The notes below the pieces were generated by a model. That model saw only the letters and a list, made by a program, of their open reading frames with translations, was not told the DNA's origin and did not search any database. Below, piece by piece: positions 284 to 43,950 of a stretch of 64,000 bases of DNA. The DNA is from Bolinopsis microptera (Eukaryota > Ctenophora > Tentaculata > Lobata > Bolinopsidae), in the NCBI RefSeq assembly GCF_026151205.1, contig NC_087075.1:8421303-8485302 (forward strand), read 5' to 3'. A program made the position numbers and the translations under genes. Each line of letters opens with the position of its first letter. The stretch's first letter is position 1.

Positions 284-315
284 AGGATACAAGGATACAA
301 GGATACAAGGATACA
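284..315 (-). repeat. 8-bp tandem repeat, probable LINE 3' tail
   Basis: Four exact copies of AGGATACA read on the plus strand (TGTATCCT on the minus strand). They lie about 140 bp downstream, on the minus strand, of the stop codon of the LINE fragment at 453-935. CR1/L2-type LINEs commonly end in short tandem repeats instead of poly(A), so this is inferred to be the element's 3' terminus. Confidence 0.55.
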
Positions 316-452
316 AAAGTGATAATTATTTTATTGAATTCACAATAGTTATAATTCTGAAATAATTTAAGGTTACACAATTCTAGTTATTTACAGATGT
401 GTAGAGGTGTAGGGATAAAATAGAAATGTTTTATAATACTATTTTTGAGGTC

Positions 453-935
453 CTATAGCATTATGCATTGGCCAGTATTTGAGTGGAAATCTGGGCTCTT
501 ATAGTAGGCTGTAAAATTTTCGTTCACAGAGAGAATTGAATGGATTGCTCTTGCTGTGGCAGTAAATTTTGTAGGGTCTAGTGTTTTATCGGATAGCAAA
601 CCGGCTAGGTCAGTAATATTTTTGGGATGGAAGTTAAATTTTTCTCTAACTGAGGAGTAGAGTAAACAGTCAGTTAGAACATGAATTTCGTCCTCAATAG
701 GCTTAAGCCCCTTGCTGAAAAAGCAAAAAGTGCACCATCGATGTTCTCTTGGTACTAGGGGGGTTTCGTAACGGCCCCTCTCAATGTAAAGATTGTGGCA
801 ACTAATACGAAACCTATGCGAATGTTTAATAATTGATTTAAACCTATTAGTAATTTCATAACTACAAATGAATACATTAATTGATGATGATACAGGAGGT
901 ACACATTTTAGTATGGTAATATGTTTGCAGTACAT
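453..935 (-). pseudogene. LINE retrotransposon C-terminal fragment (zinc knuckle)
   Basis: This is the last ~150 codons of a non-LTR retrotransposon polyprotein. The diagnostic part is a C-terminal knuckle: a GRY tripeptide, then an R-x-W-C-x-x-C pair, then a conserved IEDE-x-H segment followed by L-x-x-C-x-x-Y. That arrangement is typical of CR1-like and related LINE proteins. Reverse transcriptase and endonuclease are absent, so this is a 5'-truncated dead copy, truncation being usual for LINEs. The stop lies ~140 bp before a short tandem repeat that looks like the element's tail. The exact clade is not certain. Confidence 0.7.
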
Positions 936-1694
936 TAAAATGTAAATGCAGATGCACAGTAAGATTATCCTAAAAATATTCCTGATCGTTTGGCAGGGTC
1001 ACTAGCCCTCTCCATTTAACACTCTATCACGGTTTTTTGATCATTTGCCAGAGTCAACTGAGAACATAACACAACTGTGTAACTTCACATAAATCCAATT
1101 GATCCTATCTCCCTGGACTTGGTGACACTGTAATTTGAACATTGCAGAAAGAAATGGTACAAAAATTCATACCAGTAGTGCTATATAAGTAGTTAATAAA
1201 CGTTTTTTAGCAACATAATAATAATAATAATAAATTAATGATATTTTTATACAGCACCAAAAGGTTAAATAATTTTAATTTAACCCTTATAATGCTCAGC
1301 TGTAAATGATATCTAATTGACAGTGGAGGTTGTGCATCTTGCCTTGGACGGGGGTGAAACATGAGGATTAAACCTTAGAAATTCATAATGCTTCTCCTAT
1401 CCTTATTGTTAACATAAATGGTTCCCTCAATTCTTCCTTTAACACTTCATTCGAAACATTCCAAAAATAATAATTGTTGACAATAATTTTAGAAATCACA
1501 TCTTTCCTATATCCTTCTAATCTAACTTTAAAGCTTAGAACCGTCACAGAGCTCTTGATGTGGAAGTTTGTTTCAATACAATATCAAGTATGGTCTAAAA
1601 ACGCCCAAAATAGATCTGAGATATTTTCAGTCTGTAGTACAATAATGATAGCAATAGTTTAAATTATGTTATGTGCCGCTGCAATTAGATTAAA
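936..1694. other. AT-rich spacer between LINE remnants
   Basis: No supported gene. It contains a short (TAA)n run near 1217-1235. Part may be the untranslated 3' end of the LINE remnant whose coding ends at 1695, but I cannot see a boundary. Confidence 0.35.
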
Positions 1695-2359
1695 TTACTG
1701 TAACTTAAAATTGTTTGGAGTCCAAGTCTCTTTTAAGTCAGCAGCCTGTGATTGTATTAATAGTGCTTTCGTTCTCAATTTTATCAAGTTAATGGAAGTT
1801 TCTAGACAATTGCTTGAAGTTAAAATTTTTTTATGAACAGTGTTCCAAAGCTTTGCTGCATTAAACAAAAAGGTATTTGATTTATTTAGAAGAATAACTG
1901 TTAGACACGTTGCACGGTTTGAAATGTTGATAGCCTCATAAAGGGAGTATGGGCAGTGGTACTTGATAATCTTAGAGAATTCTAAAATGCAGTGATATTT
2001 GTACAAGTTTTGAGCCGTAAGAATTTTTAACCTAAGAATATTGTGATCAAGGGTGTCAAAGGCTTTGCTCAAGTCAATGAATATGCCTAGGACATGTTTA
2101 TTGCTAGCCAGGGACTTTGTAACAGAGTCTATAGATTTGTGTAGAGCATGGGCGGTAGAATGGCCTTTTCTAAATCCAAACTGCGAGTCTGTTAGTACAC
2201 CTTTAGATGTGAAGAAATTATAGAGCCGTTTGTAAATGACCTTCTCGAAAAATTTTCCAAATAAAGGTAATATTGATACAGGCCGATAATTTTCAATACA
2301 TTCCTTATTGTCTTTCTTGTAAATAGGAATAACTTTACCAGTTTTATTTGATGAAAATC
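1695..2359 (-). pseudogene. Decayed LINE 'A': reverse transcriptase part with internal deletion
   Basis: Minus-strand reading is open from about 2380 down to 1695. It shows the RT start (KVIPIYKKD, then NYRPVSILP), the FGFRKGHST block, and the catalytic motif A block FIDLSKAFDTLDHN. Directly after motif A the frame jumps to the protein's far C-terminus (FNAAKLWN-type segment), so several hundred codons including the catalytic DD box are missing. Its upstream part lies at 6047-6290; the two are separated by another LINE inserted between 2370 and 6036. The family is CR1/Jockey-like in appearance. The element cannot be active. Confidence 0.8.
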
Positions 2360-2370
2360 TTTTAAAAATA
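2360..2370. repeat. Target-site duplication, left copy
   Basis: TTTTAAAAATA is identical to 6036-6046. In the older LINE both copies fall at the same codon position (minus-strand reading of Ile-Phe-Lys), so they mark the target site duplicated on insertion of the 3.7-kb LINE between them. Confidence 0.75.
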
Positions 2371-5300
2371 ACTGGCTACAATGAGCATTTTAATAACAAT
2401 AAATAGTAGAGATCAAAAACTTTAATTTCCAATAGAGAAATTTATAGAAACACACCTAACAAATTTTACCCTGCTAACAGCTATTAAAAAACATTAATAG
2501 TTTCGTATAAAAATTATGATCTAAACAATTACTACCCTTCAAAAATTAATAAAAAATGTTTATGTAACAAAATATTTGACTTTACCAGTCTCTTGACGTT
2601 TCAAAATGAAACTGAGGTTGAAGATGCAGTTACAAAAGGCCACTGGTTCTTAATGGTTACTGAAACAAACTTTATCCAAAATAAAAGTTTTAAAGCAGTC
2701 CATATCTGCTTTCCTGTGAACTGAACAGCTCAAATAGAAAAACTCCTTCCCTTGTTATCAATATAACAATATTTAGTTTAAAGGTGATTGTTTTCAAATA
2801 AACATAGTCCAATAACACTATACTACACTTCAATATGCTTGGTATTTAATCCTTTATCATAATAGTAGCAAAATTAGCAAAATTAGATGCTATAATAAAG
2901 CCTTATCTTTTCGAAAGATTTATCTTCCGCTTAAGATTTAACCCCTCGCTTTCTACAATTTTAACACACACACTTATAAATATATCGTCCCTTGAGCAGT
3001 TTAGTATGATGGAGCCCTGCTCAGTTGCTAGATCGACTATGGGCCTACCACTGTTGCACAGGGTGATGATTCGTTCCGCTTGACATTGTAGATTTGTGTC
3101 CACACGCTCACAACTTGATAGTAGGTGCAGTGCTGTTTGCTCATCCGAGCCACAGATGCACAGCGGAGAGGCCGCTGCTCTGTCAACTCTGAAGAGAAAC
3201 GAGTTCAGTAGATTGTTCTTGTACATGAGACTCATAGCCAATACTTCCACTTCGCGGCTCACTCCAAAGGGGATGGGAAGGGGGTTGCAGGAGACTCTTG
3301 GAATATCAGACCATCCTTCCATAAGTAGTAGGTTTTGTAGACTTTCTTGCCAAAGTAGCTCTGTGAACTGCTGTATCATTCCCTTGGTGTACTTGTAAGT
3401 CTTTGGGGATAGTAGCAGAATGTGGTCCAGGTTTCTGTGGCTGATTTCACCGAGGTCACAGGCCTGAACTTCTGTGTTAAAATGTTCTGCTTTCCATTGT
3501 AGGAACTTCTGCACCTCTCGGAGATGACAGAGCACTGTTGGGTTCTTTTCATTTAGCTGAGTTTTCACAAAGTCATAGTGAATGTCATTTGAGTCATGGA
3601 GAACCTTGAGGTAGTGTTTGATCGAGATTATTCTTCCCAAAGTTTGGAGTGGTGGCACACCCAGAATGACTTCAAGTATTGCCCCATGGACGTTGAAAAC
3701 AGCTCCAACTGCAGCTTTAGACACTCTGTACCATAGTTTGTTTATGTCTGACATATTTGAATTGTTCATCCATATGGTAGAACCATAAAACAAGGTCGAG
3801 AACAGAATTGTTTTGGTCACTCTCACTATAACTGCTTGGTTCATGCCCCAGTTTCTGTTTGCATAACGGCTCATACAAACCCAGCGATATACTAGATTGT
3901 TGTGTACATGCTTGCTATGCTGTTTGAAGGTTAACTTACTGTCCAAAATGACACCAAGAACCCTTGTCTGATCCGTTAACTGAATTGTTTTCCCTCCAAG
4001 GTTGAATGAAGTCGGGACTCCAGCATGATCATAGCAGTTGAAGCATATAATTTCAGTCTTATTTTTGTTGCAGTTAATAACCATGCGCCAACAAGAGGTC
4101 CAATATTCAATGCTGTCCATAGCCAGGTTGAGATAGAAAAGGCACTCTTCCAAGTCTCTACCAACCACTTTCACCGTACCATCATCAGCGAATTTTAACA
4201 CATTTATTTGTTGGTACACTGAACAGACTGCCTCAATATCCATAATGAAGAATTTGAACAAAATAGGAGACAGCACAGATCCTTGTGGTAACCCAAGCAG
4301 TCCCTAACAGGGCCAAGGAATCCATTTATTAATAGGCACACTGTGCGACCAAATAGAAAACTGTCTATAGTTTTTAGGTAACAGCCATGAACACCAGCTC
4401 TCCAGAGCTTAACAACTAGTCCTTTTTTCCACACTGAATCAGATGCCTTTTCGAAGTCGATAAACAAGCAAAGTACCGTAAGCTTCTTTATAATATCACC
4501 TTTAATACCAACAGTCAGTCGATTGAGGTATCTAATAGTATTCTTGCCTTTTGAGAATCCTTCCTGATTTACATCTGTAAGTCCCACTTTCATAAGATAT
4601 ATATCAAGTCGTCGTGCCAGGGTTCGTTCAAACAGTTTCCCTACATATGAAGATATTGAAATGGGCCTGTATGCACCTGCTTGGGAGTATGATGACTTTC
4701 CGTCTTTTTTGAGATCTTAGAATCGTTCCACAGCCAGAGCCCATTTCGCAGGCAGAGTGTAAAAAGCTTGCTTAGTGCATGAATTGCAATCGGACCTAGT
4801 TTCTTTAGCATAGACTGATGCACTTCGTGGTTATCAAGACTGGCGGCTGTTGATTGAATGCCTTTCAGAGTAGCAGAGACCTCCCATGGTGTAACAGGGC
4901 AATAAAGGGTGGAGCTGTTGGTAAACCTATCTGCCATTGCCTCAGTTGCACTGGGTTGAAAGTTTCTGTATTTTATGTCATCATACAGTTTGTTTATATC
5001 CTGAAAGAAAGCATTATCGAATTTATCGATATTATTTTCGATGTGTTTAGCCTGGAAAAATGTTTCAAACATTTCTTTTTCAATGTCAGCATTTCCTGTA
5101 AGAATAGTTCCATCCTCCGATATAAGAGCTTCAACCATCTGATCTGATGGGGGTTTGAAAAGCTTATTAAACTCCTTCCAGAACTTTTTTGCCTGAGAAG
5201 TGTTAAGGTCATTTGTCTTTCGAAGAATAAACTGCTGACATGCCTGCTTTCTTGCTTCCTCAAATTCTTTCTTGGAAGCCTGCAGAGCTTCAAAGGCTGA

Positions 5301-6890: not shown

Positions 6891-7310
6891 GTTCTTGAGA
6901 GAAATCTTGTTGTTAACCTGACAGACATTGATATTCCGGATTATAGCATTGCGGTCCTTTCGTATGGTCCTGGATGGATACCCTGCCCGGATTTTGATGA
7001 GATGCAGTTCAAAGTAGATGGGTACAATGCTGCCAACAAACAAGCATGGAAAGCTGTTTTTAAGAACTCAGCACGGGATAACGAAGTTCCTATGGAGCTA
7101 CTGAAGAAACCAGTAACAGCTCCTTGTACTTCTTTTGAAGACCCAGCCATCAAGTCTGCAAAAGACAACATTGTCAATTTTGTAGACAACTTCAAGCCCA
7201 GAAAACTTGAATCTAATATGAACCGCTATGAGAGTGAAGGGTATATGGTCATTGTAAAGTTTGCTTTGCCCAAATTTGACTGCCAAAATTGGTACAATTT
7301 GACCGGTTGA
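6891..7310 (+). pseudogene. Penelope-like element, N-terminal coding part
   Basis: Open for ~140 codons after a stop at 6888. The stretch VVNLTDIDIPDYSIAVLSYG followed by GWIPCPDFDE matches the conserved N-terminal region of Penelope-like proteins, where a 'VxNLS...LL..GL.F.P.P' pattern is usual (recalled, not searched). It ends at a TGA (7308-7310) inside GGTTGAGC, which looks like the first half-motif of the spaced array. The protein is thus cut off by the array. Confidence 0.6.
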
Positions 7311-9329
7311 GCTATTTAGTGAGCTAGCATGCCACCTGGTGTTCACCCTTTGTTAATATTTCACCCAGATGGAAACAAATGTTCACTGGACACTTTAACA
7401 TGTAATCTATATGGGTTACTCAGCCAATGTGGAGCATATCAGTGCTTCAAAGTGACATTTTAAAACTTTTTGCAATCTCGTTGGTAACTGAATCTGGCAG
7501 TCAAAACAGGTTGAGACTCTCAAAAAAAGGTCCCATCTACACAGAAAGCCCCGGTTGAGACAACTTTTAATGCTCAGCCTGTGTGGAGCAGTAGCTTGAA
7601 AGTTAGGCAATTTTCAAGACCAAAAATCATACGCTAAACAGTCAAGTTTTTGGTTGAACCTCTATGAACTTTTTAGCTGAAACTCCTCTCAAGAGTTTTT
7701 GACTATTTGCGATAACACACCATGTCTCAACCGACGTGGAGCGAGGTTTTGGCAATGTAGAAATTTGTAAATTTTTAATTTATTAGCTTTTCATAATGCT
7801 TTTGTTTAGATCTGTAAGATTTTTTTAGCTTGGTAACTCTTACTAACTCTATTTTGAGTACTGAAACGGATATTTATATTCAGTACACTTTTCTCAACCC
7901 TGTGGAGCCCAAAATGGTTAAAAATTTGCCAACTTTTAAATTCTTTCTGGGTTGAGATAAAGTGACTTCTGTGATTTACATCTTGACTCCTGTATCTATA
8001 TTTTCACCGTTGATGGAGACTCTTTAGTCGAGAACAGCCTATCTCAACCATGTGGAGCAAAAAGAGGTCTTCCTTTTGATCAATCGAGACAACTTTTAAG
8101 TGCTTCATGGGATATTATTTTTATTCATTCTAGAGAAAATATGTTATAATATTGGTGGTCAATAAACTTACTTCACGGGAACTATTCAGTGCTCAACCTG
8201 TGTGGAGCAGAGATGATTTCTGTTGTATTAGATTTTCGAAGCTCACTACTTCATTCTACAGCCGCATGCAAGAGAGATCTTCATTAAATGTTAGGCAGTT
8301 GGGGAATCCCGTACATGACATGTCATTTCTAGCTCTGCTCCACTCTGGCTGAACAGTTCTGGAACATCAATCATGGCCCAATCATGGTAAGAAAAGTATT
8401 TAAAGTATATCAGTAAACTTTAAATTGCATTACGTACAAATTGGCTACAGATCGACCATCATGGAGACTCTTTTTACCGTAGAAAAGCCTGTTGCTCCTC
8501 ACGGTTGAGCATATTGTCTTTTTCTATGGTGGCATATTTCTCTTTAAAGGACACAGTACTACATACATCAACAGCTTCTTAAGTATTGATAATATCATTC
8601 CTCCTTTATCCTAATGTAACAACACTGATCCTTACAAATAGTTGTGTTATCAATCTATCATTCCATTCTGCTCCTCTCTGGTTGAGCCTATTAAATACAA
8701 TTTTTCAATCTGTTCTGCTAATAATTTATTGTAAAAGCTAAAATACTCATTCTAATTTCTCATCCAAGTCATATCAGCCGATGAGGAGTCATGTTATGCA
8801 GTAAAAGTCCTCTGCTCCACATGGTTGAGCATTACTAGGTTTATCAGCAGTTCCAAAGAATAGAGTCAGGGGGTCTGAACATAATCACAAGAAAAAATGA
8901 TATTTTTATGGCCTGATTAGATATATTTATCGTTTTTAATCACACTCACTTTCAAAACTCAGTTTCTTCCCAATCAGTATTCCCAACTAAGGTATAATAG
9001 TTTCGTGCTCCGCATCGGTTGAGCAAGGTGTACCATTATTGATAATGTTATCTGGTGCGTATTCCTTTAAACTAAGATTTTGTGAAAAGACGGAGATTCT
9101 ACTGTAATGTTTACCCCTGGTTGAGACGAAAAATATGAGGATATTTCGACTGCTCCACACTGGCTGAGGTCCATTTTATGATTTGGCAGTGAAAATATTT
9201 TGCAATTAACGTCCAGGATCTATTTGTTAAATGGCGATCAAAATAGTCAAAAAGCATAGATTTTATTGGGGTGCTCCACACTTTTTTGCTCCACATCGAA
9301 AACCAGGTCACAACTTTTGCTCCACATGA
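7305..9329. repeat. Spaced-motif array 1 (19-bp motif, ~150-bp spacing, orientation switch)
   Basis: A motif of the form TGCTCAACCnTGTGGAGCA recurs with non-repetitive spacers. In the left half it reads CTCAACC...GTGGAGC on the plus strand, at about 7419, 7573, 7726, 7893, 8043 and 8192 (steps 154, 153, 167, 150, 149). In the right half it reads TGCTCCAC...GGTTGAG, at about 8335, 8493, 8669, 8813, 9006 and 9151, with half-motifs at 9272, 9288 and 9318. The motif is an imperfect palindrome (TGCTC...GAGCA). Spacers show little mutual similarity except a shared GAGACAACTTTTAA near 7557 and 8085. No ORF is supported inside. It may be a non-autonomous transposon with protein-binding sites, or a decayed tandem array. 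Confidence 0.7.
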
Positions 9330-9401
9330 GATAGAAACTTCATTCCAAAGAATTCAGAAAATTCGGAATCTTCAGATGAAAATGATATCAGAAAGGATTA
9401 A

Positions 9402-11540
9402 ATTGCTCTTTATCAACCTGCTCAAAAATTTAAATCAAAAAGTAAGCAAAATGGGCAAAGCAAAATTGACAATGACCATATGTGGTTGAAGAAGGCTGTC
9501 AAGGATGGCTTAATAGCCATAACATCGGCTGATAAGGGCGGTGCGATAATCATTGTCACCCCTCAGATAATCAAGGATATCACTTCTGCCAAAGTTGAGG
9601 ACCCTTTGAGATACAGACCTTTGCAAACTGATCCTACTGGATCTTTGAGAGGGAGGTTGTTAGAGCTGTGGTCATCTGGTTTGGAGCGGAAGTATGTAAG
9701 TGGTGAACAGTCTAAGTGTGTGGTTGGTTTGATTCAGAAGTCTGATCAGGACACTCTTTCACAGAGCACTTCAGATCTAGTCAAGCCCGATATTCCGTAT
9801 GGTTACCCATTACTGAAAATTCACAAGCTGACTGAGACTGAAATTAGAGAGAAAAAGATTCCACCCAGTCGATTCGTGACTGATCTCTCTAGAGGAGTAA
9901 CTGCAAGATCAGATAAGTTTGTTGTTTGGAAGTGGTTGGGACCTCTTGCCAGGGATTACTGTATAGATCTTGTTAAAGATTCAACTGCAGCTCTCATAAA
10001 ACTCGAGGAATTGGCAGCTTCCGGACAAGTAGTCGATACTTGGATCAGCTTCAGTATTGATATTGTTTCTCTATACGATTCTCTGCAACATAGCTTGGTG
10101 ATGTCAGCCTTAGATGATGCTATGGAGTCGTGTAGACCAGATTGGTCTGAGGAGTTCAGGACTTGGCTGAAGGGACTGATACAGCTTAGTTTTGATTCGG
10201 CAGTCTTGAAGAATGCAGACAACTGGTATGAGGTTGTTAACGGTGTACCCACTGGAGGTATCAATTCAGTGGATTGCGGTAACATTGCTTTGTTCTTTGT
10301 CCTAAAGAGTCTAGTTTACGACCCGGTTGTTAGACCAGAGGAGCTCAAGAACCTTGATCGGTTTGTGGATGATATTTCGGGCCAAGGTATGTGGAGAGGT
10401 TCTATGATTGGTTTTGAAGAATGGGTAGGGTCATTACGCAGTAAGATGGTTGATAACTATGGCTTAGATATTACATACGAAGTGAAACCAATCACGGAGT
10501 TCACTCAGTTCCTGGACATTCAGTACAAGTTTGTTGGAGGGAGACTCACAACAGATCTGTTTAGGAAACCTACTGACGCCAACAGGTATCTTGAATTCTC
10601 AAGTTTCCATCCACGACATACCTTCCGGAGTATAGTCTTCTCACAGGCACTTCGATACAGAAGGATAATCAATGATGACGTCTTGCTGGATGAGAGATTG
10701 GCAGAGCTTCAGTTGTTTTTTGAGCGGTCTTCATATCCTACTGATATGGTGAGAGAGGTCATCAGTGATGTCAGATCGATACCAAGAACTTTACAGTACA
10801 AGGCAAAGGATCAGGGTCCCCCTTCTTTCACACCATGGATTGTTACATTCGGTGCGGGCTATGAGGAAACCAAGGAAAAGGCTAAAGAGGCCAGTAACAT
10901 CATCTCAAATAGCCGTACATGGAGCAGTGAGAACCCTGAGAGGATCCCTAAACTCCAAGTGGTGACCAGGCGAGCCCCTAACTTAAAGGACACTTTATTC
11001 AAGAGAAAGAAGCTTGCCTTAGGTTCAGAGTCAAGAACAACTGACCCATGCACCAAACCTGGTGAGAAGAAGAAAGGCAGACCCTGCCAAACTTGTCACC
11101 TTGTTAGTGGCAATTCCATGGTCTCCAATAATGGACACTCAGTCAGAACTCAAGGTGGTAACTGTAAGACACGCAACATTGTGTACGGCGCGACGTGCAA
11201 ACTTTGTACTGTTAATAACGTATACGTGGGAAAAACAGTCACCAGCCTCAGCCAACGTGTGAATGGTCATCGCAGTAAATATTATGAGATTTTAGAGGCG
11301 AGTAGTAAGGGGAATGTTGAGAGCCACAGAGATTTTGATGACGAGAATGTTTTAGGGGCACATCTTTTTTCAGTTCATAATTTGAGGGAGAGATCTGATT
11401 TCAATGAAAGTTTCCATTTTGATATTTTGTGTTCTACATCCCCAGATAATATTAGAAAGTCAGAACAGTTTTATATTAACAAATTGAAGACACTTTATCC
11501 GTTTGGCCTGAACAATGTGAATTCCGTTTCTGGAAGCTAA
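9402..11540 (+). CDS. Penelope-like reverse transcriptase with C-terminal GIY-YIG endonuclease
   Basis: A ~686-codon frame from ATG 9480, open from 9402 just after an in-frame TAA at 9399. Counting from that Met, ADKGGA at residues 17-22 is a Penelope hallmark. RT motif A (SIDIVSLYDS) is near residue 190, a GVPTGG block near 255, the catalytic FVDD near 294, and a KPTD...YL...S.HP block from about 362, with all key Asp residues present. The C-terminal ~110 residues hold a C-x-x-C pair and the GIY-YIG endonuclease (NIVYGATC...YVGKT...R..GH..K, residues 565-605). The enzyme would nick target DNA and reverse-transcribe. The C-terminal half appears intact; the N-terminal part is separated by the array, so the element is probably inactive unless the array is spliced out. 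Confidence 0.88.
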   Translation: MALYQPAQKFKSKSKQNGQSKIDNDHMWLKKAVKDGLIAITSADKGGAIIIVTPQIIKDITSAKVEDPLRYRPLQTDPTGSLRGRLLELWSSGLERKYVSGEQSKCVVGLIQKSDQDTLSQSTSDLVKPDIPYGYPLLKIHKLTETEIREKKIPPSRFVTDLSRGVTARSDKFVVWKWLGPLARDYCIDLVKDSTAALIKLEELAASGQVVDTWISFSIDIVSLYDSLQHSLVMSALDDAMESCRPDWSEEFRTWLKGLIQLSFDSAVLKNADNWYEVVNGVPTGGINSVDCGNIALFFVLKSLVYDPVVRPEELKNLDRFVDDISGQGMWRGSMIGFEEWVGSLRSKMVDNYGLDITYEVKPITEFTQFLDIQYKFVGGRLTTDLFRKPTDANRYLEFSSFHPRHTFRSIVFSQALRYRRIINDDVLLDERLAELQLFFERSSYPTDMVREVISDVRSIPRTLQYKAKDQGPPSFTPWIVTFGAGYEETKEKAKEASNIISNSRTWSSENPERIPKLQVVTRRAPNLKDTLFKRKKLALGSESRTTDPCTKPGEKKKGRPCQTCHLVSGNSMVSNNGHSVRTQGGNCKTRNIVYGATCKLCTVNNVYVGKTVTSLSQRVNGHRSKYYEILEASSKGNVESHRDFDDENVLGAHLFSVHNLRERSDFNESFHFDILCSTSPDNIRKSEQFYINKLKTLYPFGLNNVNSVSGS

Positions 11541-20510: not shown

Positions 20511-23500
20511 GTCGCCAACATGTCAGCAACATCCAACATTGGGAAAGTTGGCCACATGTTGGTTAAATAGATACCATATGACAAGATTGAGGTGTTGGAA
20601 GTTTGATATCGGTCGGAGGAAGCCCACAACAGAAAGCTTAACAAAACGAAAAGTTGTATTTTCAAAAGTCTGTCCCATTTTCAAATATGAAATTTTCTGG
20701 ACACAAATTTGACAGATTGGATGAAATTTTTGCCCAGAAACCAATTAGTCAGGTAATTGATGATGGTATGAAACCAAATTGAGGTACTGGGAGTCAAAAT
20801 CTCGAATAAAAAGGAAAAATCATATTGTCCCAATCTCTGTCCCATTTTCAGTTTTTGAAGACGAAAGTTCAAAGACAGAAATTTCACAGTTTTGACCGAA
20901 TTCTTCACCAGAAACCAATTAGTCAGTTAACTATAGATGCCATACGACACGATTGAGGTGCTGAAAGTTTGATATCGGTCGGAGGAAGCCCACAACAGAA
21001 AGCTTAACAAAACGAAAAGTTGTATTTTCAAAAGTCTGTCCGATTTTCAAATATGAAATTTTCTGAACACAAATTTGACAGATTGGATGAAATTTTTGCC
21101 CAGAAACCAATTAGTCAGTTAATTGATGATGGTATGAAACCAAATTAAGGTACTGGGAGTCAAAATCTCGAATAAAATGGAAAAATCATATTGTCCCAAT
21201 CTCTGTCCCATTTTCTCATTTTCAGTTTTTGAAGACGAAAGTTCAAAGACAGAAATTTCACAGTTTTGACCGAATTCTTCACCAGAAACCAATTAGTCAG
21301 TTAACTATAGATGCCATACGACACGATTGAGGTGCTGAAAGTTTGATATCGGTCGGAGGAAGCCCACAACAAAAAGCTTAACAAAACGAAAAGTTGTATT
21401 TTCAAAAGTCTGTCCGATTTTCAAATATGAAATTTTCTGAACACAAATTTGACAGATTGGATGAAATTTTTGCCCAGAAACCAATTAGTCAGTTAATTGA
21501 TGATGGTATGAAACCAAATCGAGGTACTGGGAGTCAAAATCTCGAATAAAATGGAAAAATCATACTCACCAATCTCAGTCCCATTTTCAGTTTTTGAAGA
21601 CGAAATTTCAAAGACAGAAATTTCACAGTTTTGACCGAATTCTTCACCAGAAACCAATTAGTCAGTTAACTATAGATGCCATACGACACGATTGAGGTGC
21701 TGAAAGTTTGATATCGGTCGGAGGAAGCCCACAACAAAAAGCTTAACAAAACGAAAAGTTGTATTTTCAAAAGTCTGTCCGATTTTCAAATATGAAATTT
21801 TCTGAACACAAATTTGACAGATTGGATGAAATTTTTGCCCAGAAACCAATTAGTCAGTTAATTGATGATGGTATAAAACCAAATTGAGGTACTGGGAGTC
21901 AAAATCTCGAATAAAATGGAAAAATCATATTGTCCCAATCTCTGTCCCATTTTCAGTTTTTGAAGACGAAAGTTCAAAGACAGAAATTTCACAGTTTTGA
22001 CCGAATTCTTCACCAGAAACCAATTAGTCAGTTAACTATAGATGCCATACGACACGATTGAGGTGCTGAAAGTTTGATATCGGTCGGAGGAAGCCCACAA
22101 CAGAAAGCTTAACAAAACGAAAAGTTGTATTTTCAAAAGTCTGTCCCATTTTCAAATATGAAATTTTCTGAACACAAATTTGACAGATTGGATGAAATTT
22201 TTGCCCAGAAACCAATTAGTCAGTTAATTGATGATGGTATGAAACCAAATTGAGGTACTGGGAGTCAAAATCTCGAATAAAATGGAAAAATCATATTGTC
22301 CCAATTTCTGTCCCATTTTCAGTTTTTGAAGACGAAATTTCAAAGACAGAAATTTCACAGTTTTGACCGAATTCTTCACCAGAAACCAATTAGTCAGTTA
22401 ACTATAGATGCCATACGACACGATTGAGGTGCTGAAAGTTTGATATCGGTCGGAGGAAGCCCACAACAGAAAGCTTAACAAAACGAAAAGTTGTATTTTC
22501 AAAAGTCTGTCCGATTTTCAAATATGAAATTTTCTGAACACAAATTTGACAGATTGGATGAAATTTTTGCCCAGAAACCAATTAATAGTCAGTTAATTGA
22601 TGATGGTATAAAACCAAATTGAGGTACTGGGAGTCAAAATCTCGAATAAAATGGAAAAATCATATTGTCCCAATTTCTGTCCCATTTTCAGTTTTTGAAG
22701 ACGAAATTTCAAAGACAGAAATTTCACAGTTTTGACCGAATTCTTCACCAGAAACCAATTAGTCAGTTAACTATAGATGCCATACGACACGATTGAGGTG
22801 CTGAAAGTTTGATATCGGTCGGAGGAAGCCCACAACAGAAAGCTTAACAAAACGAAAAGTTGTATTTTCAAAAGTCTGTCCGATTTTCAAATATGAAATT
22901 TTCTGAACACAAATTTGACAGATTGGATGAAATTTTTGCCCAGAAACCAATTAGTCAGTTAATTGATGATGGTATGAAACCAAATTAAGGTACTGGGAGT
23001 CAAAATCTCGAATAAAATGGAAAAATCATATTGTCCCAATCTCTGTCCCATTTTCTCATTTTCAGTTTTTGAAGACGAAAGTTCAAAGACAGAAATTTCA
23101 CAGTTTTGACCGAATTCTTCACCAGAAACCAATTAGTCAGTTAACTATAGATGCCATACGACACGATTGAGGTGCTGAAAGTTTGATATCGGTCGGAGGA
23201 AGCCCACAACAAAAAGCTTAACAAAACGAAAAGTTGTATTTTCAAAAGTCTGTCCGATTTTCAAATATGAAATTTTCTGAACACAAATTTGACAGATTGG
23301 ATGAAATTTTTGCCCAGAAACCAATTAGTCAGTTAATTGATGATGGTATAAAACCAAATTGAGGTACTGGGAGTCAAAATCTCGAATAAAATGGAAAAAT
23401 CATATTGTCCCAATCTCTGTCCCATTTTCAGTTTTTGAAGACGAAAGTTCAAAGACAGAAATTTCACAGTTTTGACCGAATTCTTCACCAGAAACCAATT

Positions 23501-24468
23501 AGTCAGTTAACTATAGATGCCATACGACACGATTGAGGTGCTGAAAGTTTGATATCGGTCGGAGGAAGCCCACAACAGAAAGCTTAACAAAACGAAAAGT
23601 TGTATTTTCAAAAGTCTGTCCCATTTTCAAATATGAAATTTTCTGAACACAAATTTGACAGATTGGATGAAATTTTTGCCCAGAAACCAATTAGTCAGTT
23701 AATTGATGATGGTATGAAACCAAATTGAGGTACTGGGAGTCAAAATCTCGAATAAAATGGAAAAATCATATTGTCCCAATTTCTGTCCCATTTTCAGTTT
23801 TTGAAGACGAAATTTCAAAGACAGAAATTTCACAGTTTTGACCGAATTCTTCACCAGAAACCAATTAGTCAGTTAACTATAGATGCCATACGACACGATT
23901 GAGGTGCTGAAAGTTTGATATCGGTCGGAGGAAGCCCACAACAGAAAGCTTAACAAAACGAAAAGTTGTATTTTCAAAAGTCTGTCCCATTTTCAAATAT
24001 GAAATTTTCTGAACACAAATTTGACAGATTGGATGAAATTTTTGCCCAGAAACCAATTAGTCAGTTAATTGATGATGGTATAAAACCAAATTGAGGTACT
24101 GGGAGTCAAAATCTCGAATAAAATGGAAAAATCATATTGTCCCAATCTCTGTCCCATTTTCAGTTTTTGAAGACAGAAATTTCAAAGACAGAAATTTCAC
24201 AGTTTTGACCGAATTCTTCACCAGAAACCAATTAGTCAGTTAACTATAGATGCCATACGACACGATTGAGGTGCTGAAAGTTTGATATCGGTCGGAGGAA
24301 GCCCACAACAGAAAGCTTAACAAAACGAAAAGTTGTATTTTCAAAAGTCTGTCCGATTTTCAAATATGAAATTTTCTGAACACAAATTTGACAGATTGGA
24401 TGAAATTTTTGCCCAGAAACCAATTAGTCAGTAAATTGATGATGGTATGAAACCAAATTGAGGTACGT
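20500..24468 (+). repeat. Satellite array, 11 units of ~366 bp (dimeric)
   Basis: The phrase GATATCGGTCGGAGG recurs at about 20605, 20971, 21345, 21710, 22076, 22442, 22811, 23185, 23551, 23917 and 24283. Steps are 366, 374, 365, 366, 366, 369, 374, 366, 366, 366. Each unit is two related ~183-bp halves sharing CCAGAAACCAATTAGTCAGT, one with GATATCGGTCGG and one with GGGAGTCAAAATCTCG, so an older monomer was doubled and then amplified. Two units carry the same 8-bp insertion (CTCATTTT phase). The first unit is the most diverged. No protein or ribozyme core recognised. Confidence 0.95.
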
Positions 24469-36206: not shown

Positions 36207-36450
36207 TACGTTCAGCAGCATTGACAAACACCAACCGTTTACCAATAGATGGTGCCTTGTGGCTGGAGCATGACTGACGTCTCACGGGCTGCAAATGGAG
36301 CAATGTAGTGTATATATTACTTAAAACTGATAAGTGGAAACCATATTACACAGGTTTTTGAACAATTTTCAGCACTTACGATATGGACACGTTCATTTGA
36401 GTTTGAGGATATTGGTAAATATAAGTGACCCTATTAAAAGGCACAGTGTA

Positions 36451-38380
36451 GTTGACTTTGTCACACTATGAAATTACTTAAACCCTTGATGGTTAGGATA
36501 ATCGTCTCATCCTCTAGGCTAACTTTGTCACATAACGATATCTTAATCAGGTGATAAGATATCGCTTAAATACGGCCGGCACGGAAATGGTTACATTGTC
36601 ACACTATAAACATGTGACGGAGTAAATATGGACCCCTTGCTGCCGTTTTTGACCAAATTTTTGAGTGTCCAGTTGATTGGATGGGTACATATGACCATTA
36701 CCTACATATTTGACGACTTTTTTAGTTAGATGGTGCATTCAGGTTTACTCTGTCACACATTAAAGAAAATATGTGATGAATGTTTAGGGCACCCTGCTAA
36801 GTAATGATGGGTAGTGTAAGTTTATTTGATGGCCTGGAAGTGCTGGGAATTGTTATTATATTATATAGTCGTAAGGAATTAAAACACAGAAGGCACAACC
36901 AAGCTTACTTTGTCACAATATAATCTTGATGATATCTGAACATGTGTGAAATTGAACAAATAATGATACCAGCTCAAACCCCTTATATTATACGTACTAT
37001 GGATCAAACAACACTGCTAGTACCATGCACCAGTCACATAAATCATTATCAGGTGGTAATATGTTAACAGTGTCACAATTAAACTACCGCTACATGGTCA
37101 AAAATAGGGTAATTTCGTCACACAAAATTATTATAACTCTGTTATAGCTCCTTGCTGGCAAAATAACTAGTTTATCGACATTTTTTTGATGATAAAGTAA
37201 CATAGTAATAGAGGTATATTTCTTCAAAATAGGGGCAAGACATGTTTACTTTGTCACATCAGTTATTATAAGAGTTAGGTAATCGTCATCAGATTAAAAG
37301 ATATTTTTCGTAGTTTGGATCGATTAATACTTTAATATACCTGTAATAAATCCTATGCCAATTTTAACACACTATCTTGATACTGTTGGGGCAGGGAAAG
37401 TTAATTTTGTCACATTTCCAATGTCTTTGACAAATGAATCTAAATTTTTAAAATTGAGCTCTTATGTTCTGGACAATATTCTTCCAATCGTTTCTGAAAG
37501 AATGTTGAATTCTAATAGAGTTATAGATCTTCAAAATAGGGGAAAGACAAGTTTACTTTGTCACATCAGTTATTATAAGAGTTAGGTAATCGTCGACATC
37601 ACATTAACATATATTTTTTTGTAGTTTGGATTGATTTATATAGGTAATAAAGCAGCCTATGCTAATTTTTACACACTATCTTGAAATTGTTGGGGCATGA
37701 AAAGTTAATTTTGTCACATTTTTAGTGACTTTGACAAATTTAACCTAAAATTGTTAAACTTAAGCTCTGATGTTCTGGACAATATTCTAATAGAGGTATA
37801 GAATATAGATCTTCAAAATAGGGGCAAGACATGTTTACTTTGTCACATCAGTTATTATAAGAGTTATTATAAGAGACTATTTCATTCTATAATCATTGTT
37901 TTTAATCTATTTACGATTTCGTATACTTTTTTGTGACAATGTAAACGTCAACTGATCTTAACTTGCATCAACTACATTGTCATCATATAAAATTTTCCCG
38001 CCTTTCAAACCAAAATCAGATATAAATAATTCGCCCAAAATTTTAAATTTCATATATTGTGACAGAATTAACCTCATTTCCCAATAACCGAGTGCCTGTA
38101 TTAGCTAACTATTCAGAACAACATATTTTAGGGCTATGATTGGTAGAGCAACCATCAAATAATTAGTTGAAAGGGTTTTTAGGACACCTCACAGTAGAAT
38201 AGAGGTATGGTATCATGAGTGTGACAAAGTTACCCAAATATTGCCATGTAACCGTTCGATCCGTGCCCATTAACCAATGTTGTATCATAATTGTTAGATT
38301 GACCTAATTTACTATATTTCAGACCAAGGAATGATAATTAGGTAACTGCAGTTAACTAAGTCACACAAAATGTGACATTT
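36451..38380. repeat. Spaced-motif array 2 (~16-bp motif, ~150-bp spacing, orientation switch)
   Basis: GTTTACTTTGTCACA and close variants occur forward at about 36451, 36518, 36589, 36742, 36902, 37063, 37107, 37243, 37399, 37551, 37703 and 37832, most steps being 130-160. It then appears inverted (TGTGACAAAGTTAAC-like) at about 37932, 38058 and 38220, and a last forward/inverted pair sits near 38350-38380. Between 37225 and 37870 longer spacers repeat with ~305-bp period (two motifs per unit); elsewhere spacers are unrelated. No ORF is supported inside. The geometry parallels the array at 7.3-9.3 kb although the motif differs. Confidence 0.75.
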
Positions 38381-38523
38381 GAAACATTATAGTGCCTAAC
38401 AACAATAGATTTTCTTTCTGAGCGGTGCATATGGGAGTATGGGTTACGTGGCTAATGTTCAGAACTTCTGAACGTGCTAGGTTAATAGAAGTCAAAATTA
38501 AGCCACTATGGGGGGAATGCAAC

Positions 38524-38588
38524 GTCAATTAATGTCAATTAATGTCAATTAATGTCAATTAATGTCAATTAATGTCAATTAATGTCAA
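38524..38588 (+). repeat. 10-bp minisatellite (GTCAATTAAT)n
   Basis: Six exact copies and a partial. The same 10-mer recurs at 39192-39231, and its inverse appears near 38610. Confidence 0.95.
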
Positions 38589-39191
38589 TGTCAGTTTTGC
38601 AAAATTTTGGAATACTGACATTAATTGACACGATATTTTTCGACCAGAGATTATGTAGTTCTACCATATTTTTAGCACTTTAGAACGTTTATATCATCAA
38701 TTTATTCACTACTATCACATATGGAAATGTGAAATGTGAAAAAAATTCAGATCATTAAACAATAAAACTAAAATAATACGGTTTCCCGAAATTTAATTTT
38801 CTTAAATGGGCCTGGCCATCCAAGGGCGTGGTTCTCAACATCATCAGAACTTAAAACCCACATTAAACGAAATGCCTTCATGACATTTATATTTGAATAA
38901 CGAATCTTAAACAGCTAACATTACTCCTTCATACTAAAAAAGCCGATTCTAGATATTTTACCTGTATAAGAAACCAATAAAATATGGGCGTGGCCGGTGG
39001 GGACCGAAGATGGAAGACTTGGAAGCTGAAATTTTTTTTGGTGGTCTTTAAACCTAAGGATCAACAGATAAGAACATACTCATAATTATTCAAGGACATT
39101 TTGTTTTTTTGAACCGGTCTAACTTACATAGACGTGAATATCTTGAATATTTATCGAATAATGATAATCTCAAATTTCAAGACATATTAAT
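38589..39191. other. Sequence between two (GTCAATTAAT)n runs
   Basis: About 600 bp, AT-rich, no ORF supported. Flanking by the same minisatellite could mean insertion of a ~600-bp unit into one array. Confidence 0.4.
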
Positions 39192-39231
39192 GTCAATTAA
39201 TGTCAATTAATGTCAATTAATGTCAATTAAT
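39192..39231 (+). repeat. 10-bp minisatellite, second run, followed by poly(G)
   Basis: Four exact copies of GTCAATTAAT, then a run of about nine G. Confidence 0.95.
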
Positions 39232-39300
39232 GGGGGGGGTGTCATGTCCGTCTATGTCCGCCTATGTCCTGTCCTTTTTGGATTCTATGAGACAACGGAC

Positions 39301-39475
39301 GTGTTTTTTGGGACATTGGCGGACACGGACGGACATTGGCGGACTCGGACGGACATTGGCGGACTCGGACGGACATTGGCGGACTCGTACGGACATTGGC
39401 GGACCCGGACGGACATTGGCGGACTTGGATGGACATTGGTGGACATTAGCGGACATTGGTGGACATTAGCGGACA
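39301..39475 (+). repeat. 20-bp minisatellite
   Basis: About eight copies of GGACATTGGCGGACTCGGAC with variation at the 15th-17th bases and shortened copies at the right end. Open frames here on both strands are artefacts of the repeat. Confidence 0.95.
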
Positions 39476-39479
39476 AACA

Positions 39480-42400
39480 TTTTGAGGACTGAAGAGTACT
39501 GAAGAGTACTGAGGAGGATGGCTGAGAAGGATGGCTGAGGAGGATGGCTGAGGAGGATGACTGAGGAGGATGACTGAGGAGGATGACTGAGAGGGAGGAG
39601 AAGGATCATGAAGACCCAGGAGGAGGAGGAAGAGGAGGAAAAGGACTGAGGAGGAGGAGGAGAAGGACTGAGGAGGAGAAGGAGGACCCAGGAGGAGTCG
39701 AGGAGGACCCAGGAGGAGGAGGACCCAGGAGGAGGACCCAGGAAAAGGCCCCAGGAGGAGGAGGACTGGGGAGGAGGAGAACTGTTAAGGACTGATGAGG
39801 AGGACTGAGGACGAAGAGGAAGAGTAGGAGGAGGACTGAGGAGGGGAGGAGGAAGAGGACTGGGGAGGGTCAGGAAGACCCAGGAGGACCCAGGAGGAGG
39901 AGGAGGAGGACCCAGGAGGAGGAGGAGGACTGAGGAGGACTGAGGAGGAGGACTGACGATGACTGAGAAGGAGGAGGACTGAGGAGTACTGAGGAGGATG
40001 GCTGAGGAGGATGGCTGGGGAGGATGGCTGAGGAGGATGACTGAGGAGGATGACTGAGAGGGAGGAGGAGGAGGACTCAGGAGGAGGACTCAGAAGGAAG
40101 AGGAGGAGGACTCAGGAGGAGGACTCAGGAGGAGGACTCAGGAGGAGGACTTAGGAGAAATGAGAAGAAGGACTGAGCAGAACTGAGGAGGAGGAGGACT
40201 GAATAGGAGGAGGAGAAGGAGGGGGACTGGGAGAGGACTGGGGAGGAGGAGGACTGATGAGAAGGATGAGGAGGAGGACCCAGGAGGAGGAGGACTGAGG
40301 ACCGAGGTGGAAGAGGAGGAGGATGAAGAGGAGGAGGAGGACCCAGGAGGAGGAGGACTGAGGAGGAGGACTGAGGAGGATGGCTGAGGAGGATGACTGA
40401 GAGGGAAGAGGAGGAGGAGGAGGAGGAGGACTGAGGAGGACTGAGAAGGAGGAGGAGGAGGACTGAATAGGAGGAGGAGGAGGGGGACTGGGGGAGGACT
40501 GAGGAGGAGGATGGAGGACTGAGGAGAAGGATGAGGAGGAGGACTGAGGACTGAGGAGGAAGAGGAGGAGGATGAAGAGGAGGAGGAGGACCCAGGAGGA
40601 GGACCCAGGAGGAGGACTCAGGAGGAGGAGGAGGACCAGGGAGGAGGAAGACTGTTGAGGACTAATGAGGAGGACTGAGGACGAGGAGGAGGAGTAGGAG
40701 GAGGACTGAGGAGGGGAGGAGGAAGAGGACTGAGGAAGATCAGGAAGACCCAGGGGGAGGAGGAGGAAGAGTAGGAGGAGGAAGCATCTAAATGTTATTT
40801 CCATTTTTGTCCGTTTTTGTCCATTTTTGTCCGTTTTTGTCCGCTCTATTTTTTGTCTGTTTTGAAAATATAGGGTACCGAACGGACAAAAAACATGATC
40901 CCCTATAACAGCAAAAATTGAACATTTTATTTAGCAATTTAGGTGTCCATAAATGTCCGCCTATGTCCGCCTATGTCCACCTATGTATGAGGAGGAGAAG
41001 GACTGAGGAGGAGGAGGAGGACCCAGGAGGAGTCGAGGAGGACCCAGGAGGAGGAGGACCCAGGAGGAGGACCCAGGAAAAGGCCCCAGGAGGAGGAGGA
41101 CTGGGGAGGAGGAGAACTGTTGAGGACTGATGAGGAAGACTGAGGACGAGGAGGAAGAGTAGGAGGAGAACTGTTGAGGACTGATGAGGAAGACTGAGGA
41201 CGAGGAGGAAGAGTAGGAGGAGGACTGAGGAGGGGAGGAGGAAGAGGACTGGGGAGGATCAGGAAGACCCAGGAGGACCCAGGAGGAGGAGGAGGAGGAC
41301 CCAGGAGGAGGAGGAGGAGGACCCAGGAGGAGGAGGAGGACTGAGGAGGAGGACTGACGATGACTGAGAAGGAGGAGGACTGAGGACTGAGGAGGAAGAG
41401 GAGGAGGATGAAGAGGAGGAGGAGGACCCAGGAGGAGGACCCAGGAGGAGGAGGAGGACTGGGGAGGAGGAAGACTGTTGAGGACTGATGAGGAGGACTG
41501 AGGACGAGGAGGAGGAGTAGGAGGAGGACTGAGGAGGGGAGGAGGAAGAGGACTGAGGAAGATCAGGAAGACCCAGGGGGAGGAGGAGGAAGAGTAGGAG
41601 GAGGAAGCATCTAAATGTTATTTCCATTTTTGTCCGTTTTTGTCCATTTTTGTCCGCTCTATTTTTTGTCTGTTTTGAAAATATAGGGTACCGAACGGAC
41701 AAAAAACATGATCCCCTATAACAGCAAAAATTGAACATTTTATTTAGCAATTTAGGTGTCCATAAATGTCCGCCTATGTCCGCCTATGTCCACCTATGTA
41801 TGAGGAGGAGAAGGACTGAGGAGGAGGAGGAGGACCCAGGAGGAGTCGAGGAGGACCCAGGAGGAGGAGGACCCAGGAGGAGGACCCAGGAAAAGGCCCC
41901 AGGAGGAGGAGGACTGGGGAGGAGGAGAACTGTTGAGGACTGATGAGGAAGACTGAGGACGAGGAGGAAGAGTAGGAGGAGAACTGTTGAGGACTGATGA
42001 GGAAGACTGAGGACGAGGAGGAAGAGTAGGAGGAGGACTGAGGAGGGGAGGAGGAAGAGGACTGGGGAGGATCAGGAAGACCCAGGAGGACCCAGGAGGA
42101 GGAGGAGGAGGACCCAGGAGGAGGAGGAGGAGGACTGAGGAGGAGGACTGACGATGACTGAGAAGGAGGAGGACTGAGGAGTACTGAGGAGGATGGCTGA
42201 GGAGGATGGCTGGGGAGGATGGCTGAGGAGGATGACTGAGGAGGATGACTGAGAGGGAGGAGGAGGAGGACTCAGGAGGAGGACTCAGAAGGAAGAGGAG
42301 GAGGACTCAGGAGGAGGACTCAGGAGGAGGACTCAGGAGGAGGACTTAGGAGAAATGAGAAGAAGGACTGAGCAGAACTGAGGAGGAGGAGGAGGAGGAC

Positions 42401-42655
42401 TGAATAGGAGGAGGAGAAGGAGGGGGACTGGGAGAGGACTGGGGAGGAGGAGGACTGATGAGAAGGATGAGGAGGAGGACCCAGGAGGAGGAGGACTGAG
42501 GACCGAGGTGGAAGAGGAGGAGGATGAAGAGGAGGAGGAGGACCCAGGAGGAGGAGGACTGAGGAGGAGGACTGAGGAGGATGGCTGAGGAGGATGACTG
42601 AGAGGGAAGAGGAGGAGGAGGAGGAGGAGGACTGAGGAGGACTGAGAATTAGGCA
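39480..42655 (+). repeat. ~3.2-kb purine-rich GGA tract with long internal duplications
   Basis: The plus strand is almost wholly A and G, built of GGA/GAGGACTGA units, with two pyrimidine-containing islands (about 40797-40990 and 41610-41800). The islands are near-identical copies 813 bp apart, and the tract from ~39955 recurs from ~42150. The islands carry TTTTTGTCCG repeats and TGTCCGCCTA repeats. Long open frames on both strands (Ser/Pro-rich or Glu/Gly-rich) are read-through of low complexity and not genes. Assembly in such DNA is error-prone. Confidence 0.9.
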
Positions 42656-42707
42656 AGAACTAACCTTTATTGAAGAAGTAGGAACGAATTGGGGTTTTGA
42701 GGTAAGG
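42656..42707. other. Junction between purine tract and exon-like fragment
   Basis: Unique sequence with no gene. Confidence 0.3.
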
Positions 42708-42770
42708 CGATTTTTGTGGCACTTGCGGAACCGATGAGAATGCGAGAGGATCACTCGGTTCCTGACTGGA
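42708..42770 (-). pseudogene. Degenerate copy of exon 1 of the seven-exon gene
   Basis: The minus strand reads ACCGAGTGAT..., GCATTCTCATCGGTTCCG and TGCCACAAAAAT, each matching exon 1 at 35540-35470 in order, with a deletion between the first two blocks and changes beyond. In protein terms HSHRFR and CHKN are kept. Similarity may continue towards 42840 (AATACCAAAGCC also occurs at 35611). A start codon and donor are not evident, so it is probably a decayed duplication placed 7 kb upstream of the gene. Confidence 0.65.
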
Positions 42771-42984
42771 AGGGTTGAGATAAGAGGCAGAAGTAGAAAG
42801 CTGGAGTACCCAGGACGAATACCAAAGCCGAAATAAGGACTGCTGTTGAGGAGTGAAGATTAGAGAATCGATAGGAGAGTACAAAGGTGCTGATAGAATG
42901 CGTGAGGAGGGTACAAGAGGAAAACTGCTTTACGATGATCTAGCGAACCATGCCGATAAGGCAGGACGGAAGAGTACAGGAGGA

Positions 42985-43240
42985 GCGAGCGGCATCCATT
43001 CTACCAATTTTTGTCGTGATTTGTCGCATGATTTGTCCCGAATTAAAAAATCGGGTCCGACGGACAAAAAAACAGATATACTTATAACACAAAAATTCAA
43101 GTATTTTAGCACTTTGAGGTATGCCACTCCTACTTAATGTCCGCCTCATGTCCGCCTTGCCATATTATTAACCCAATCCCCTATGTCCCCTATTCGGCCA
43201 GCGTCCGTCAAGTCGCCTATGTCCGTATTGTACGCCTTCT
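42985..43240. repeat. Decayed copy of the purine-tract island
   Basis: ATTTGTCGCATGATTTGTCC, CGACGGACAAAAAAACA and TGTCCGCCTCATGTCCGCC resemble the islands at 40797-40990 and 41610-41800 but without the GGA tract. Confidence 0.55.
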
Positions 43241-43950
43241 CCGCTGTTTTTTGGTCAATAAATTTAAGTGACTTTAGCAGGACTTGACACACGCCCACCG
43301 TTAGCAATAATGTCCTATTAATGCAATGATATTTGACTAAAATGACATTTTGAGTGTATATATACTAAACACAGTAATGAGTTGCAAACCACATGCACTA
43401 TCGTAAAAACCATATTTTTGTTTACCAATATCCTCAAACTCAAATGAACGTGTCCATATATAATAGCAAAACCCTCTGTATTGCTTTCTGACCAGTGCAA
43501 CTCGGATTGATTGTCATTGACATAACATGATTTTATTTATCGAAATGCTATTCTTCACTACATAATTCATATCAACTTTTTCCTGAAAACTTATCAGAAT
43601 TGAGCAAAAGGAAACAGCGATATTTTTGTATTACTAAACTAGAAATTAAAACATACAATATTTCAATATGTTCAATATTATCTCATCAAAAGTGCAAAAC
43701 TGTCGTTATATCTTGACTTAAAAGGCCCGCCATCTCGGAAGAGTCTTAAACAGTAACGTCTGCTCGATAAAAGCTAAATGGTCAGACATATTTATGAAAC
43801 TGACTTCTCGTCACATCCAAACAAGGAGATGAGAATATCGTAGCAAGTCTGCAACAAGTCGTATCCCATCATCTTCTCTGGCAGGTCTTAATGCTTCTTT
43901 CGGCTCCTAGAAAGTAATTCTTAAATTAGTATTGAGTATTTGACTTCGAT
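43241..43950. other. No gene seen
   Basis: AT-rich with no supported ORF. It would contain the 3' end of the gene whose coding stops at 43951. Confidence 0.35.

Follow-up and report, generated by a model that had tools for sequence, protein, structure and literature searches.

A spaced-motif array in the Bolinopsis microptera genome is the body of a recently active TIR DNA transposon

A transposon at the locus

The window analysed here is a stretch of 64,000 nucleotides of the Bolinopsis microptera genome (contig NC_087075.1, positions 8,421,303 to 8,485,302 of the forward strand). It contains two arrays of short, spaced motifs, one at 7.3-9.3 kb and one at 36451-38380. The second stretch is the body of one DNA transposon with terminal inverted repeats (TIRs), family F2, which occupies window positions 36385-43455 (Table 1). 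A preliminary description of this DNA had raised the question of whether a transposon carries the motif near its ends. One does: the array is itself the transposon, whose right end at 43455 had been overlooked.

The window copy is 7071 bp long including its insert, and uninterrupted copies of the same subfamily measure about 2.18 kb. The insert contains 10-bp GTCAATTAAT repeats and GAG-rich repeats, and CACTAT is found at both of its borders (38504-38509 and 43396-43401; junctions placed by eye). In other F2 copies, about 24 bp separate the equivalent of position 38509 from the right TIR, without an insert. Two copies, the one in the window and L011 (~314-3970), have satellite-rich inserts near opposite ends, each beginning with a G run.

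Table 1. Coordinates of the two transposons in the window and of their motif arrays
Feature	Position in window	Strand	Evidence
F2 left target-site duplication ATAT	36381..36384	.	ATAT on both sides
F2 left TIR GGACACGTTCATTTGAGTTTGAGGATATTGGTAAA, 35 bp	36385..36419	+	Copy comparison and genome TIR matches
F2 forward motif array, 12 main sites of GTTTACTTTGTCACA type, starting at 36451, 36518, 36589, 36743, 36903, 37063, 37108, 37244, 37400, 37551, 37704 and 37833	36451..37847	+	Motif search and weight matrix
Recent ~305-bp two-motif tandem unit inside the F2 array	37206..37876	+	Repeat and spacer comparison
Three inverted F2 motif sites, starting at 37932, 38058 and 38220	37932..38234	-	Motif search and weight matrix
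Satellite-rich insertion in the window F2 copy, 4886 bp	38510..43395	.	Tandem repeats; junctions by eye
F2 right TIR, 0 mismatches	43421..43455	-	TIR pairing
F2 right target-site duplication ATAT	43456..43459	.	Flank reading
F1 target-site duplication ATAT	7243-7246 and 9478-9481	.	Flank reading
F1 TIR transposon GGTCATTG...CAATGACC, 2231 bp	7247..9477	+	TIRs, target-site duplication, empty sites
F1 forward motif sites, six, CTCARCC..TGTGGAGCA type	7428..8209	+	Motif scan
F1 inverted motif sites, nine, with one weak forward match at 8782 among them	8336..9326	-	Motif scan

F2 is present in hundreds of dispersed copies, many of them near-identical. With a 5-kb query around the array (best 40 of 2892 candidates scored), at least 33 other places match nearly all of 36381-38509 (~2.13 kb) at 95-100% identity. 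All ten copies L001-L010 start with the left TIR and end with its inverse. Genome-wide, the F2 TIR has 491 forward and 499 reverse matches at up to three mismatches (990 in total; control 0), and therefore roughly 500 copies, whole or truncated, are present. Identity of the window copy to L001 and to L002 is 99.76% in each case, a sign of recent movement; F2 is a recently active DNA transposon. Motif and TIR occur together: of the 100 exact motif matches listed, which are all from C1, 90 have an exact TIR within 3 kb (random mean 1.3), and at least two of the other ten, both in L016, sit in a copy with a recognisable left TIR.

Target-site duplications (TSDs) were assessed in L001-L060 and the window, which hold 34 F2 TIR pairs and 15 single ends; end-to-end reading thus covers 34 of the ~500 copies, with 15 further ends read on one side, which may be parts of longer elements. 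The 4-bp flanks are identical in 32 of the 34 pairs (22 ATAT, five TTAT, two ATAA, and one each of AAAT, ACAT and TTAA), the exceptions being L015, a head-to-tail composite, and L055. Shuffled flanks also match often (mean 15.8 pairs, maximum 22) because ATAT dominates; among pairs other than ATAT/ATAT, the flanks match in 10 of 12. The fifth base out is the same in none of the 32 pairs with identical 4-bp flanks.

Head-to-tail F2 composites with several left ends and a single right end were seen in L015 (489, 2878, 5269) and L012 (253, 3097), with left ends spaced ~2.39 kb or 2.84 kb apart. The sequences in L040 and L045 are related to F2 more distantly (about 73-77% over 138-337 bp), and their TIR is reduced to its first 15-17 bases.

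The TIRs and TSDs also bear on a rolling-circle origin, in which the locus would be a Helentron/DINE-like element and the ~150-bp repeats would be internal to it. Internal tandem repeats are possible in such elements, but Helitrons and Helentrons have no TIR-plus-TSD structure. Both families in the window have TIRs and 4-bp TSDs, and F1 has empty sites with the TSD (see below). The rolling-circle explanation is refuted because TIR and TSD are present, and we assign it next to no probability.

Motif sites, spacing and orientation

The preliminary description had reported about a dozen forward motifs followed by three inverted ones. This is what we find: 12 strong forward sites of a 15-bp motif and then three inverted sites, each with 0-4 mismatches; a further forward site, at 38351, is weaker. 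When the stretch is scored with a position-weight matrix derived from that same stretch, 21 sites are detected in 36385-38509, of which 15 reach at least 19 bits, far above the mean of 0.4 (maximum 2) in 30 first-order Markov shuffles. Four of the six matches below 19 bits are inverted among forward sites (36597, 36613, 36911 and 37730), and two of these four overlap a forward site. The motif lies outside the TIR and is no part of the TIR sequence, and its sites span the whole body rather than just the regions near the ends. At up to one mismatch it occurs 2040 times in the genome, compared with 128 for the reversed control. Comparison with Rfam gave 0 matches.

The six weak matches were excluded from both spacing tests. 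Steps between strong sites are 67, 71, 154, 160, 160, 45, 136, 156, 151, 153, 129, 99, 126 and 162 bp, and the coefficient of variation of 0.30 for all 15 was matched by none of 5000 random placements. When each unit is represented by a single site (12 in all, without 36451, 36518 and 37108), it falls to 0.14, matched by none of 20000 placements. The period of 130-160 bp described previously holds mainly from 36589 on, where steps are mostly 126-162 bp; steps of 67-71 bp separate the first three forward sites, and 37108 is an extra site in the spacing. The reported orientation switch is likewise partly upheld. It is single among the 15 strong sites (runs probability 0.005), but the strand order over all 21 matches shows no significant ordering (runs probability 0.33). 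The array is thus lopsided, with 12 forward and three inverted sites, and its weak matches break the order.

A second family with the same layout

The array at 7.3-9.3 kb belongs to F1, a separate transposon family with the same layout as F2. Its TIRs are 26 bp long with two differences. Fifteen places in the genome represent empty sites, in which host sequence without F1 has its two sides joined by a 5-nt overlap consisting of ATAT plus a chance g. The 4-bp flanks are identical in all five copies read at both ends (ATAT, TTAT, ATTT, ATAA and ATGT). A census of F1 TIRs gave 35 matches (control 1), comprising 17 pairs and one single end; 12 pairs are about 2.2 kb long, three include long LINE-like inserts and two are of 412 bp. 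The retroelement around F1 is PLE-like by reading, and window 9402-11540 has no match in Pfam.

The 9-base core of the F1 motif has 16 matches (shuffle mean 2.4, maximum 5). Its strands are ordered (runs probability 0.01), with the switch near the middle of the element. In a spacing test with one site per unit, for which four motif matches were dropped, sites are 135-193 bp apart, with a coefficient of variation of 0.10 that none of 20000 random placements equalled. No similarity was found among 45 pairs of F1 spacers (z -2.4 to 2.5), and F2 gave no alignment with motif-masked F1 at E<=0.05, in agreement with the previous statement that the motifs of the two arrays have no sequence in common.

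A spacing of ~150 bp is about one nucleosome length, and a role in host chromatin is the main rival to recognition by a transposase for this reason. F2 would still be a non-autonomous TIR transposon, but its motif would bind a host protein (a silencer, chromatin or replication factor) or set nucleosome positions, with one site per nucleosome, and would help persistence instead of transposase recognition. Such a role would fit the spacing of F1 and F2, which have different motifs and are both near one nucleosome length, the regularity of F1, and the distribution of sites throughout the body. It leaves the inward orientation and the strand switch, significant in F1 and among the strong F2 sites, as features that a host factor would not need, and the difference between the F2 motif and that of F1 and F3 (a third family, below) is explained more easily by different transposases. 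We regard a host role as unlikely.

Turnover of units and spacers

The ~305-bp two-motif repeat noted at first inspection is real, with copies at 37206, 37513 and 37795 (steps 307 and 282). TRF reported no ~150- or ~305-bp array in 36385-38509. We compared 28 pairs among eight F2 spacers, leaving out the first two and those after 1449. Two pairs, which form the two halves of the ~305-bp unit, are clear duplicates (860/1167 at 84% and 1016/1320 at 72%), two are weakly raised (679/1016, z 4.5, and 679/1320, z 3.5), and the remaining 24 resemble shuffled sequence. Elsewhere in the genome, F2 copies differ in the number of ~303-bp units, and the count of unit-type motifs ranges from 2 to 14 among 34 copies. 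These results bear out the proposal that the array grows by tandem duplication while older spacers diverge.

The accompanying proposal, that spacers diverge while motifs persist, applies inside the element and between subfamilies, but not among recent copies. In one comparison between subfamilies, with L019, motif columns are 97.5% identical and spacers 94.7%. Among 11 recent copies, variable columns number 15 of 225 in motifs and 129 of 1885 in spacers, that is, variation is equal. The pattern fits constraint solely on lineages still transposing, although the difference is modest.

Equal variation among recent F2 copies would also fit a motif with no present function. Under this alternative, old satellites of ~150-bp monomers were captured by transposons, and the motif is simply the slowest-decaying part, like the conserved box in satellite monomers. 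Tandem growth of the 303-bp unit is real, and a 62-bp duplication, 98% alike, is present in an F3 array (L061). However, homogeneous tandem monomers are not what we see, with only two of 28 F2 spacer pairs clearly duplicated; spacers are at shuffle level in all 45 F1 pairs and in 24 of the 28 F2 pairs while the motif stays strong. A strand switch inside the element is not expected of a captured satellite either, and F1 and F3 have the motif in common and nothing else detectable. We consider this origin quite improbable.

Search for a transposase

No transposase was recognised among the open reading frames (ORFs) of the copies read, which were judged by eye except for 12 proteins of the copies and the window that were compared with Pfam. 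F2 seems to be non-autonomous, without a transposase gene of its own. The preliminary description had envisaged a full-length autonomous transposon with the motif: a transposon does carry it, but none of the copies read is autonomous. The Pfam comparison also identified a sulfotransferase gene above the cut-off and a rhodopsin-type receptor match below it.

Long F2 TIR pairs were considered as candidates for the autonomous partner. Most were rejected as nested insertions with LINE- or PLE-like ORFs (L021/L022, L024-L027, L029, L030, L046 and others, by eye), and Pfam gave reverse-transcriptase matches for two L021 ORFs and a GIY-YIG match for L025. L028 carries a ~2.4-kb insert of unassigned kind between F2 ends. 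An exonuclease-like 5.8-kb piece in L023 and L032 was also rejected as partner, as it is bounded by ~720-bp inverted ends of its own and is found in L033 and L034 in the absence of an F2 TIR. This repeat (L023 2121-7918, L032, L033 and L034; diverged in L035) is inserted at different places in two F2 copies, and its ORFs are DEDDh exonuclease-like (by reading; no Pfam match) and CxxC-rich. Searches by exclusion patterns for an autonomous F2 yielded nothing but ordinary copies, truncated or diverged ones, and 15-bp look-alikes that lack a second end within 4.5 kb.

For F1, an extra piece at one position of two copies was examined as a candidate transposase and proved to be two different LINE-like inserts; a 6.9-kb insert in a third copy is LINE-like too. 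That the two former inserts (L048 and L049) occupy the same F1 position, ~1473, hints at site preference. Other neighbours of F2 include a foldback-like insert of palindromic CAGCGCT-type repeats in one copy (L037, ~2803-4440), flanked by CATTTTTC on both sides (by eye), and, adjoining a truncated copy (L036, 1-1723), a NERD-domain ORF and a P-loop helicase-like ORF.

Proposed mechanism and relation to known elements

On balance, the F2 array is probably the body of a non-autonomous, TIR-bounded DNA transposon, in which the motif is a putative site bound by a trans-acting protein, which would most likely be the transposase DNA-binding domain of an autonomous relative. F2 inserts by a cut-and-paste type reaction that generates the 4-bp AT-rich TSD. 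With about one site per 150 bp, and most of the sites directed inward from the two ends, the element may have better odds of capturing and pairing both ends. The array would grow and shrink by tandem duplication of the two-motif ~303-bp unit, which would account for the observed pattern: recent units still match, whereas old spacers have lost all similarity and the motif and approximate phase persist. Against this reading stand the failure to find an autonomous element or transposase in the copies read, the position of the motif outside the TIR, the equal variation of motif and spacer among recent F2 copies, the lopsidedness of F2 (12/3), the disorder of its weak matches, the two inverted sites among the forward ones of F3 and the weak regularity of F3 when all 16 sites are counted.

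Accounts of non-autonomous transposons usually invoke nothing but the ends, and the arrays raise the prospect that mobilisation or chromatin depends on how many internal sites there are and how they are spaced. In families whose spacers are unrelated, a motif is kept at ~150-bp intervals, mostly inward, across ~2 kb. The genome offers roughly 500 copies with natural differences in unit number, in which array length could be set against copy success.

Both families have two features of non-autonomous cut-and-paste elements: TIRs, of 35 bp in F2 and 26 bp (two differences) in F1, and a TSD of fixed length, 4 bp (32 of 34 F2 pairs; five of five F1 copies read, of 17 pairs). The subterminal repeats of CACTA/EnSpm elements, units of 10-20 bp, lie close together over several hundred bp, and the termini are CACTA, whereas F1 and F2 have mostly ~150-bp spacing over ~2 kb and GGACAC/GGTCAT termini (GGACACG in F2, GGTCATTG in F1). 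The target of piggyBac and Kolobok is TTAA, a sequence found in just one of the 32 F2 TSDs.

Galileo (P superfamily, Drosophila) and Foldback-like elements are comparable in layout. The THAP domain of the Galileo transposase binds several sites at the element ends, some of them in tandem repeats of the TIRs (PMC3688188). Galileo is the nearest tested precedent for the proposed mechanism. A difference is that the Galileo/Foldback sites are within long, internally repetitive TIRs, whereas the TIRs of F1 and F2 are short (26 and 35 bp), sites fill the body, spacers bear no relation to one another and TSDs are of 4 bp.

The TSDs of F1 and F2 recall Sola2, for which the accessible part of the source gives AT-rich 4-bp duplications such as ATAT, AAAT and ATTT (PMC3627910). 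The likeness rests on the TSD, and that part of the source mentions no phased arrays for Sola (PMC3627910). Searches by TIR pairs and exclusion patterns identified no autonomous, transposase-bearing partner with F1 or F2 ends. We therefore do not file F1 and F2 as Sola, and membership is unproven.

Tetris, with internal tandem repeats of ~220 bp (PMC4079207), and the pearl family (PMC5139131) resemble F1 and F2 in that they seem to be non-autonomous and vary in the number of their internal tandem repeats. As described there, whole repeat units are alike in Tetris and pearl, whereas in F1 and F2 mostly just a 15-18-bp motif is conserved and its strand switches.

A third array family

An exact search of the genome with the F1 motif gave 94 matches (control 0), of which five are outside F1 copies (by eye). 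The motif variant from those five has 27 matches (control 0), and 23 of them form six clusters. A 141-bp step is found in all six and a 245-bp step in four, as expected for copies of one family, F3. One cluster, covered by L061 (C8, 3017 bp), has 16 motif sites (shuffle mean 0.24, maximum 2) with the orientation ++++++-++-+-----, in which two inverted sites lie among forward ones (runs probability 0.11). Of 5000 random placements, 161 are as regular as all 16 sites. For the main 11 sites, with five dropped, this is the case for three of 20000, and for the main 11 plus one site with four mismatches, for none of 20000. Spacing and orientation are therefore looser in F3 than in F1.

Motif-masked F1 and F3 (L061) showed no similarity at E<=0.05. 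L061 was found through the motif, so the presence of the motif follows from the search, which does not apply to the array or to the unrelated spacers. At 855, TTAT is followed by GGTCATGTTAGAG, a possible left end with a weak resemblance to the F1 terminus (5 of 18 mismatches). F3 is presumably a TIR transposon too. Judged by its sequence, F3 is a third array family with a motif in common with F1.

The preliminary description had suggested a class of elements, not an accident, and this is supported because both arrays in the window are TIR transposons with 4-bp AT-rich TSDs and F3 adds a third array family. More speculatively, the families could belong to a group of DNA transposons of their own, each whole element being an array of protein sites that face inward and are phased at nucleosome scale. 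Three or more families of one genome, with unrelated spacers, would keep little beyond the motif, the ~150-bp phase and the orientation, and the spacing itself would be selected, perhaps for loading transposase onto chromatinised DNA. We hold this wider proposal to be possible and rather doubtful. We found no description of such phased arrays in the literature searched, a search whose scope lay outside subscription journals and Repbase, where these families may be catalogued.

A strict chain scan for more arrays recovered some F2 and F1 copies and missed the F2 array of the window (0 in three shuffled controls). Its other matches were the palindromic foldback-like insert in L037 and a repeat in L045. 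Among the matches listed in an 8-mer scan of the window, most belong to a satellite at 20567-24466, which has no strand switch. This satellite is a tandem array of 366-bp units, 97% alike, with a 192+174 substructure.
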